A DNA stretch of 51,487 nucleotides from the NCBI GenBank assembly GCA_944389135.1, contig CALXLG010000003.1, positions 1-51,487 on the forward strand. The letters are read 5' to 3'. The notes below the pieces were generated by a model, which was not told where the DNA came from, did not search any database, and saw nothing but the letters and a program-made list of their open reading frames with translations. This DNA comes from an uncultured Alphaproteobacteria bacterium (GTDB lineage Bacteria > Pseudomonadota > Alphaproteobacteria > Rs-D84). Positions 48,104 to 48,752 of the stretch are shown here, in pieces; position 1 is the stretch's first letter; each line of letters starts with the position of its first letter. The position numbers and the translations under genes were made by a program.

Positions 48104-48153
48104 ATATATAAAAGTAGTCAAAATAAGCAAATTTCGCAATAAAATAAAAACAA

Positions 48154-48182
48154 TGGAAATCTGGATAAATATATTATATAAT
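48154..48182 (+). promoter_or_regulatory. Weak candidate promoter upstream of the first RNA element
   Basis: TGGAAA (48154-48159), 17 bp, perfect TATAAT (48177-48182). Small hairpins (CAATAA/TTGTTATTG; CTCCAAC/GTTGGAG) follow before the first element. Confidence 0.35.
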
Positions 48183-48266
48183 TAGTACTGCAATAATGTG
48201 TTGTTATTGCGGGGAATCAAAACCCCAACAGAGTATCTTATTACAGATAAAAAATCTCCAACTACA

Positions 48267-48363
48267 GGTTGGAGGGCGGTGAATATATTGAATAAACCCG
48301 CTATACTGTGTTATAGTTTTGATCCTCCAACCACCTGATTTTCCGGTGGTTTTTATTTAATAA
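48267..48363 (+). ncRNA. Structured RNA element, copy 1, ending in an intrinsic terminator
   Basis: The element matches copy 2 at all but two of 97 positions. Stems: P1 GGTTGGAGG/CCTCCAACC closes the unit; P2 GCGG/CCGC and P3 CTATA/TATAG lie inside; AACCACC/GGTGGTT plus a T run makes a terminator whose first strand overlaps P1. The one inner difference lies in the P3 loop, so pairing is kept. Only decayed traces of a ribosome site and coding start follow this copy. An upstream CTCCAAC at about 48256-48262 could pair with the P1 5' strand instead. Confidence 0.6.
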
Positions 48364-48398
48364 AAGCAAAGGGGATAAAACTGCCTGAAAAGTTCGGT

Positions 48399-48426
48399 TT
48401 GAATTTATATTCATATATCTTATAAT
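48399..48426 (+). promoter_or_regulatory. Promoter of RNA element copy 2 and the 63-aa gene
   Basis: TTGAAT (48399-48404), 16 bp, perfect TATAAT (48421-48426). Transcription would start near 48433, about a dozen bases before the element. Confidence 0.75.
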
Positions 48427-48445
48427 ACATTTGATATATGACTTT

Positions 48446-48542
48446 GGTTGGAGGGCGGTGAATATATTGAATAAACCCGCTATACTCTGTTATAGTTTTG
48501 ATCCTCCAACCACCTGATTTTCCGGTGGTTTTTGTTTAATAA
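48446..48542 (+). ncRNA. Structured RNA element, copy 2, in the leader of the 63-aa gene
   Basis: It has the same stems as copy 1: P1 48446-48454/48503-48511, P2 48455-48458/48477-48480, P3 48480-48484/48491-48495, terminator 48508-48514/48524-48530 followed by five T. P1 and terminator share four bases, the topology of a riboswitch or attenuator in which a bound ligand could hold P1 and stop termination. It could equally be a self-terminating small RNA. A good ribosome site and the 63-aa gene follow within 20 bp. It matches no riboswitch family I know. Confidence 0.6.
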
Positions 48543-48560
48543 AAACTGTGGGGGAAAAAG

Positions 48561-48752
48561 ATGAGCCTGTTCAAAATAGAAAAATATGAACAAGACACTG
48601 TAAAAGTAAGACAACGTAAAAAAATTCTGCAAGAACTTATCGCATCTTATGAATTTGAACCTGATATTACATTAACAGATATCCAACAACACCTGCAAAT
48701 TGTTCAGAAAGAAATTAAAAACCTGATACGAAAAGAAAAATCTAAGCGATAA
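48561..48752 (+). CDS. 63-aa charged helical protein under the RNA element
   Basis: GGGGG sits 9 nt before the ATG. The peptide is a highly charged pair of helices (YEQDTVKVRQRKKILQELIA and ITLTDIQQHLQIVQKEIKNL) with a basic end, suggesting a small nucleic-acid- or protein-binding factor. No family is recognised. It is the only gene between the RNA elements and the next terminator. Confidence 0.65.
   Translation: MSLFKIEKYEQDTVKVRQRKKILQELIASYEFEPDITLTDIQQHLQIVQKEIKNLIRKEKSKR

Follow-up and report, generated by a model that had tools for sequence, protein, structure and literature searches.

The repeat and the complete element at the locus

The window, i.e. the whole stretch of 51,487 nucleotides that was analysed, contains two copies of a 97-nt repeat (48267-48363 and 48446-48542), followed by a plus-strand gene (48561-48752) encoding a protein of 63 amino acids (MSLFKIEKYEQ...) without a match in Pfam or NCBIfam. 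As stated in the preliminary description, the copies start 179 nt apart and differ at two positions, namely 48308 (G) versus 48487 (C) in the loop of P3 and one base in the T-rich tail; across 114 nt the identity is 93%. Folding confirmed that P1 (GGTTGGAG/CTCCAACC), the two inner stems P2 and P3, and a terminator (AACCACC/GGTGGTT) can form in both copies, and that the 3' strand of P1 shares four bases (AACC) with the terminator. The terminators were located on the plus strand at 48329-48357 (copy 1, stem followed by a T run) and 48508-48536 (copy 2). The promoter ascribed to copy 2, TTGAAT-N16-TATAAT, is indeed present in a motif search (48399-48426, plus strand), where sigma-70-like sites occur barely above chance (4 found versus 2.5 +/- 1.6 expected). 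The folding energy of the repeat alone is ordinary (z-scores of -1.0 to -1.4) and the case for it rests on its relatives.

Alignment of the flanks of these relatives revealed that the repeat is real but forms only the 3' half of an element of about 150 bases. One complete copy is found in the window (48190-48351), copy 1 thus starting about 77 nt further upstream than was described. Its 5' half (48190-48263) consists of a hairpin (H1), GGGG-a-CCC, a segment b, a second hairpin (H2) and a segment c. The three segments have their complements, in nested order, in the 3' half: a' directly precedes the 3' strand of P1, b' is the loop of P3, and c' is the 5' strand of P1. H1 (GCAATAA..TTATTGC, 48190-48210) appears in the minimum free energy (MFE) fold and has an equivalent in relatives. 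GGGG-a-CCC extends from 48211 to 48226, with a (ATCAAAAC, 48216-48223) pairing to a' (48316-48323) according to comparison, energetics, covariation and fold, and the GGGG can pair with the CCUC of c'' (the 3' strand of P1); the CCUCC in the 3' part has its main role in P1 and in these GGGG pairings. Segment b (AACAGAGTAT, 48227-48236) was identified from an inverted repeat and the fold, while H2 (48238-48250, from the fold) is a short, weak hairpin without a T run that occupies the place of a terminator in phage-type loci. Segment c (CTCCAACT, 48256-48263) pairs with c' (48267-48274), a pairing that excludes P1 and has support from energetics, covariation and fold. All these parts lie on the plus strand, as does the core that follows (48267-48332), which shows covariation, resembles C4 and sRNA-Xcc1 and comprises P1 (48267-48274/48325-48332), P2 with a conserved AATATATTGAATAA loop, P3 and a'. 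The element is preceded by a likely sigma-70 promoter (TGGAAA-N17-TATAAT, 48154-48182, plus strand), which has 10 of the 12 consensus bases, a level also common in shuffled sequences, and the predicted start point of which is approximately the first base of the element.

Copy 2 has a similar core (48446-48511, plus strand) and no 5' half. As the 5' half was not noticed in the preliminary description, both the competing fold and the non-equivalence of the two copies were overlooked. The two base differences were also thought to leave pairing intact; this holds for the stems of the repeat itself, but not for the pairing with the 5' half, as G48308 opposes G48231. Segment b consequently has one G.G mismatch with b' of copy 1 (48303-48312) and matches b' of copy 2 (48482-48491), with its pairing C, perfectly.

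Two mutually exclusive folds

The complete element can adopt either a long fold, in which a/a', b/b' and c/c' pair and the terminator is free, or a C4 fold, in which P1, P2 and P3 form and P1 takes bases from the terminator. Both folds are conserved as judged by covariation, and c/c' excludes P1. In an alignment of 48 sequences, 94.1% of the cells of the long fold were paired, 22 pairs had changed on both sides, and 227 cells carried double changes versus 62 in shuffled alignments; the covariation score (0.357, versus 0.126 in shuffled and at most 0.062 in slid alignments) was reached in none of 500 shuffles. At the a/a' positions up to all four Watson-Crick pair types were encountered. For the C4 fold 94.0% of the cells were paired, with a covariation score of 0.312, and for 33 copies from a single genome, in an alignment fitted to the model, these values were 95.3% and 0.315. 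A refutation by lack of covariation among relatives, as envisaged earlier, therefore failed. The pairing is also specific to each copy: among 184 distinct elements the mean longest Watson-Crick run was longer with the own 5' half than with that of other copies, both for a (6.83 versus 4.55) and for b (6.84 versus 5.48).

Within the genus, 8 of the 9 pairs of P1 are nearly invariant, in part because the pattern used to collect copies contained GGTTGGAG; the pattern also required the P2 loop, the conservation of which is thereby overstated. In diverged copies, c, c' and c'' were found to change together, as in L190 from another alphaproteobacterial lineage (GCCTCTCGC/GGCGAGAGG/CCTCTCGCC), in L138 (CTCCTGA/GTCAGGAGG/CCTCCTGAC), in L140 and L135 (CCAATC/GATTGGAGG/CCTCCAATC), in L048, and in a copy from the window's own genome (TCCCGA/GTCGGGAAG/CTTCCCGAC). 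One strand is thus forced to match two partners, which is the signature of a switch. A diverged element of the own genome with P1 GTCGGGAAG/CTTCCCGAC and an sRNA-Xcc1-like P2 loop (L230:1306-1490, minus strand, contig C5) is followed by a gene for a secreted protein that by eye resembles a PAP2-type phosphatase.

For the leader the long fold is predicted: it was more stable than a structure with forced P1 in 142 of 148 elements (median difference 12.5 kcal/mol) and kept on average 7.0 terminator pairs, versus 1.8 in the forced-P1 structures. Removal of the 5' half raised the ensemble probability of P1 from 0.002 to 0.80 and lowered that of the lowest four terminator pairs from 0.77 to 0.28. 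The probability of the inner terminator pairs without the 5' half is still 0.69, and in the MFE structure of copy 2 P1 and the inner terminator occur together; read-through in the C4 fold may thus be only partial, since the two can coexist. A c/c' pair has a probability above 0.999 in copy 1, and a P1 pair one of 0.70 in copy 2. The model calculations put the stability of the long fold at a level where some active trigger would be required to leave it. Comparative and energetic evidence thus agree on two exclusive helices, one of which frees and the other of which blocks an intrinsic terminator, as in an attenuator. The cis-regulatory, attenuator-like nature of the RNA proposed before is strongly supported by covariation, by conservation throughout the genus and by the position upstream of genes with a Shine-Dalgarno sequence (SD).

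Relation to C4, sRNA-Xcc1 and other RNAs

The repeat had been called unrecognised, and at the gathering score Rfam indeed identified only a tRNA in the window. In a relaxed scan the known-family comparison gave a match below threshold: both copies matched sRNA-Xcc1 (RF02221) over its full length (1-87 of 87) with 39.2 and 38.9 bits (E-values 1.7e-5 and 1.9e-5; cut-off 53) for copies 1 and 2, respectively, and other copies of the element scored 28-38 bits. The layout, moreover, is that of the C4 module of phage P1, having P1-P2-P3 with b' in the P3 loop, a' beside the P1 helix and an a1b1-like part upstream on the same strand. The C4 model (RF01695) itself gave no match in genomes G000, G027, G003 and G012 and 15.7 bits only in G018, compared with 68.8 for phage P1, and neither the c4-a1b1 model (RF03163; up to E 5 in 48150-48600) nor the isrK model (RF01394) matched the element in the window.

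In the phage P1 region matched by RF01695 the order is a1, b1, hairpin, c, C4 and then a2, b2, icd and ant. The immI modules of phages P1 and P7 share with our element the order promoter, hairpin, a1, b1, hairpin, c, C4, the position of b' in the P3 loop and of a' before the 3' strand of the P1 helix, and the RCC after this helix. The phage modules differ in having a2b2, a terminator before C4 and the genes icd and ant, whereas the element described here lacks a2b2, has its terminator after the C4-like part and occurs in many chromosomal copies. sRNA-Xcc1 shares the full-length core including the P2 loop motif (the AATATATTGAATAA loop is related to its AATACAA...GAATAA internal loop), and most of the well-scoring loci inspected have an a1b1-like 5' half; these loci differ by having a2b2 close to the SD of genes that resemble antirepressors and by the absence of a T run after the RNA. 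In 20 sRNA-Xcc1 loci of other Proteobacteria (L158-L177), a1/b1 was found upstream and, in many, a2/b2 downstream, with b2 covering the SD in several (L158, L161 and L163), and some of the genes that follow resemble, by eye, phage antirepressors of the BRO, KilA-N and Rha types. sRNA-Xcc1 has no Rfam clan and is discussed as a virulence sRNA. Because its loci share the a1/b1 and a2/b2 layout with phage P1, sRNA-Xcc1 is itself, on this comparison of sequences, to be regarded as a C4-type antisense RNA, which the clan assignment in Rfam does not show, and it is now placed among these RNAs. It was found upstream of symE in Xanthomonas integrons (PMC12444791) and was listed beside C4 and isrK in Xylella, where in the section concerned the link between them is not drawn (PMC12189769).

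IsrK of Salmonella prophage Gifsy-1 (RF01394), the model of which scores 35 bits on the a1b1 region of phage P1, is likewise an upstream RNA ending at an intrinsic terminator, and read-through and trans pairing to the downstream STnc1160 were described to control genes there (PMC4825925). It differs in that the terminator follows the a1b1-like RNA and that the outcome is translation of orf45/anrP, whereas in the element the terminator follows the C4-like part. In Acinetobacter baumannii the group 1 sRNAs also comprise many C4-like RNAs in one genome with a variable a', but these are described as processed free sRNAs that match the C4 family, for which the passages on this group report no attenuator wiring or gene-by-gene placement (PMC5320573).

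Two further candidates were dropped. Attenuation by a leader peptide is contradicted by inspection of the reading frame concerned (GTG AAT ATA.., 19 codons), the start of which is GTG or GCG depending on the copy and in which the P2-P3 length varies. An integron attC site, suggested by the integron-borne sRNA-Xcc1, was set aside because it would not be expected to have a terminator, a promoter and compensatory a/a' changes.

A relocated terminator and the proposed mode of action

The main difference with the phage-type loci was found in the terminator. A T run follows the C4-like part in 165 of 181 elements of Candidatus Enterousia and in none of 20 phage-type loci, whereas a T run before it, at the hairpin between b1 and C4, is present in 11 of 122 Enterousia elements and in 18 of the 20 phage-type loci. 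Complementarity to a2/b2 downstream is clear in phage-type loci. For the 184 Enterousia elements there was no excess complementarity to the downstream leader, neither of a' (4.63 versus 4.49) nor of b' (5.39 versus 5.40). Judging from these sequences, the terminator has effectively been shifted to a place behind C4, where it stands in for the a2b2 targets.

We consider it probable, from sequence comparison and structure prediction, that the full element is a phage C4-type module that resides on the chromosome and has been rewired as a transcription attenuator before single genes. It would read promoter, 5' half (H1, a, b, H2, c), C4/sRNA-Xcc1-like RNA, terminator, SD and gene. By default the 5' half would pair with the nascent C4-like part, c/c' first and then b/b' and a/a', by which P1 would be blocked, the full terminator would form and the gene would be off. 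If the 5' half is unavailable, whether occupied, removed or missing, the C4 fold would form, P1 would pull AACC from the lower stem of the terminator and the gene would be read. If so, a phage immunity RNA has been turned into an apparently genome-wide system of gene control.

A classical role, in which the repeat is an antisense RNA that acts in trans and represses translation via a2/b2 at ribosome-binding sites, with the 5' half as a decoy, seems unlikely. It would explain the combination of a C4-like core with an a1b1-like 5' half as in phage P1, there are sRNA-Xcc1 loci with b2 over the SD, and orphan C4-like copies with their own promoter exist in the window and in L071 and L121. The lack of excess a'/b' complementarity to the downstream leader, a complementarity that phage-type loci do show, and the terminator between C4 and the gene both argue against it, as does the outcome of pattern searches without mismatches, which yielded neither a second target for copy 2 in the rest of the window's genome nor any for the L071 orphans; a candidate trans target at C8:31280 was rejected as unrelated sequence without an element.

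The attenuator reading may have a further step. C4 is cut by RNase P at GGW (PMC5320573, citing Hartmann et al.), and the element has both the GG start and the RCC after P1, the latter being needed by the terminator as well. P1 with RCC behind it is similar to what RNase P cuts in phage C4, and by analogy the C4 fold might be cut there as well, at the 5' end of P1, freeing a small RNA; this release of the C4-like part, and any positive feedback exerted by it, are speculative.

Genes behind the elements and their pairing codes

An ORF was found behind the element in 167 of 184 cases, at a median distance of 51 nt from P1, and 137 of these have an SD. The gene families are diverse and have no common metabolic theme. 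Among ORFs of at least 100 amino acids, a start resembling a signal peptide (according to a home-made rule) is present in 43 of 57 behind elements versus 105 of the 468 other ORFs of these loci, and many of the shorter ORFs behind elements encode small helix-turn-helix proteins.

In one genome (G389) each of the 22 ORFs that could be read behind an element appears to encode a secreted protein, and 15 of these share the Pfam domain Flg_new. About 20 mostly paralogous secreted proteins with Flg_new (Listeria-Bacteroides repeat), each with its own element, were seen in the loci of this genome (L235-L267), and several of its contigs end at elements, so that the true number may be higher. Segment b is distinct in all 33 copies, and non-cognate combinations rarely match at both a and b (8 of 1056). 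In this genome the element stands before the genes of a whole set of related secreted proteins, every copy having a pairing code of its own. Codes of this private kind would be expected of an RNA that acts in cis or on itself only; alternatively, they could reflect plain drift under cis pairing. The code permits very sharp tests.

The data allow, though we think it rather unlikely, a self-sustaining switch with a private address, in which the C4-like RNA freed from one read-through transcript of a gene pairs with a/b of the following one, so that P1 forms there and the gene stays on while its siblings ignore the signal. It is allowed because the presumed RNase P site, P1, is confined to the on fold, because b is distinct and non-cognate matches are this rare, and because most of the larger genes behind the switch look secreted. 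If true, a bacterium with a reduced genome would hold dozens of genes for secreted proteins in independent, heritable on and off states by means of RNA alone.

The ligand riboswitch considered in the preliminary description found no support. A leader of this type that senses a ligand or protein through the conserved P2 loop is in our estimation improbable: the strong conservation of this loop, with its kinship to the sRNA-Xcc1 internal loop, the attenuator layout and the dozens of copies per genome, as for second-messenger switches, would fit such a sensor, but the loop motif also occurs in phage-type C4-like RNAs and is thus older than the attenuator, its conservation is inflated by the collecting pattern, the genes lack a metabolic theme, and private a/b codes would be needless for a common ligand.

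Occurrence and copy number

A DNA search identified further copies, some of them weak, in the window's genome and in each of the 34 other genomes sampled from the genus. A covariance model (R1) built from the long fold and used for a search throughout the genus matched 76 of 78 genomes, including all 56 of good quality; the two without a match are both of lower quality. With full scoring, the Candidatus Enterousia genomes (about 1 Mb) contain 1-62 copies, the highest numbers in single genomes being 62, 57, 57, 46, 45 and 36, and the window's genome contains 8. A structured leader RNA at such a density, with as many as 62 copies in about 1 Mb, is striking. Outside the genus, 12 genomes in a sample of the class have 1-6 copies each, mostly with the same terminator layout (L201 is of the phage type). 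Where matches are named they belong to Candidatus Enterousia, and the others derive from gut, rumen and other animal-associated Alphaproteobacteria. The Enterousia lineage has reduced genomes and is thought to consist of symbionts or parasites (PMC12306168). Three IMG/VR entries filed as viral (L155-L157) contain the element, but their sequence looks like that of an Enterousia chromosome, not of a phage, and they are probably misfiled.

That the element is a self-spreading repeat or a remnant of prophage immunity without current function is very improbable in spite of its phage ancestry, its many copies and tandem arrays, the copies without a 5' half and the several contigs that end close to copies, as strongly diverged copies keep every helix by compensatory change, the position upstream of a gene with an SD is regular, and the element persists in nearly the whole genus despite genome reduction, with no accompanying phage genes noticed.

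The window locus, its sister species and tandem series

The 63-aa gene is kept at the same place in two sister species (64 and 65 amino acids). In one of these (L121) two copies are present too, b matches copy 1 perfectly and a' of copy 2 differs; the b of the window differs from that of L121 by a single base, the one that makes copy 2 match. In a third species two orphan copies without a 5' half were found (L071:2784-3045, minus strand; a' GTTCTTATCC), for which that genome has no matching 5' half; these are possible free trans-acting RNAs, to judge from sequence. The locus in the window is evidently in flux by the same comparison: copy 1 has the sequence of a complete switch, and copy 2 has lost or never had its 5' half. 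Our model predicts copy 2 to be leaky or to act in trans on the 5' half of copy 1, to which it is the better match of the two copies.

Tandem series of 2-5 complete elements, spaced by about 240 nt and placed before one small gene, occur elsewhere, for instance in the window's own genome (L003/L231, C4:75811-76449) and in L131, L106, L123 and G360:C8. The small gene that follows often belongs to an MTLGxEIExIR family resembling helix-turn-helix proteins. Arrays of diverged C4-like cores, some without intervening terminators, were observed in L143:350-1340 and L135:2940-3650, both on the minus strand.
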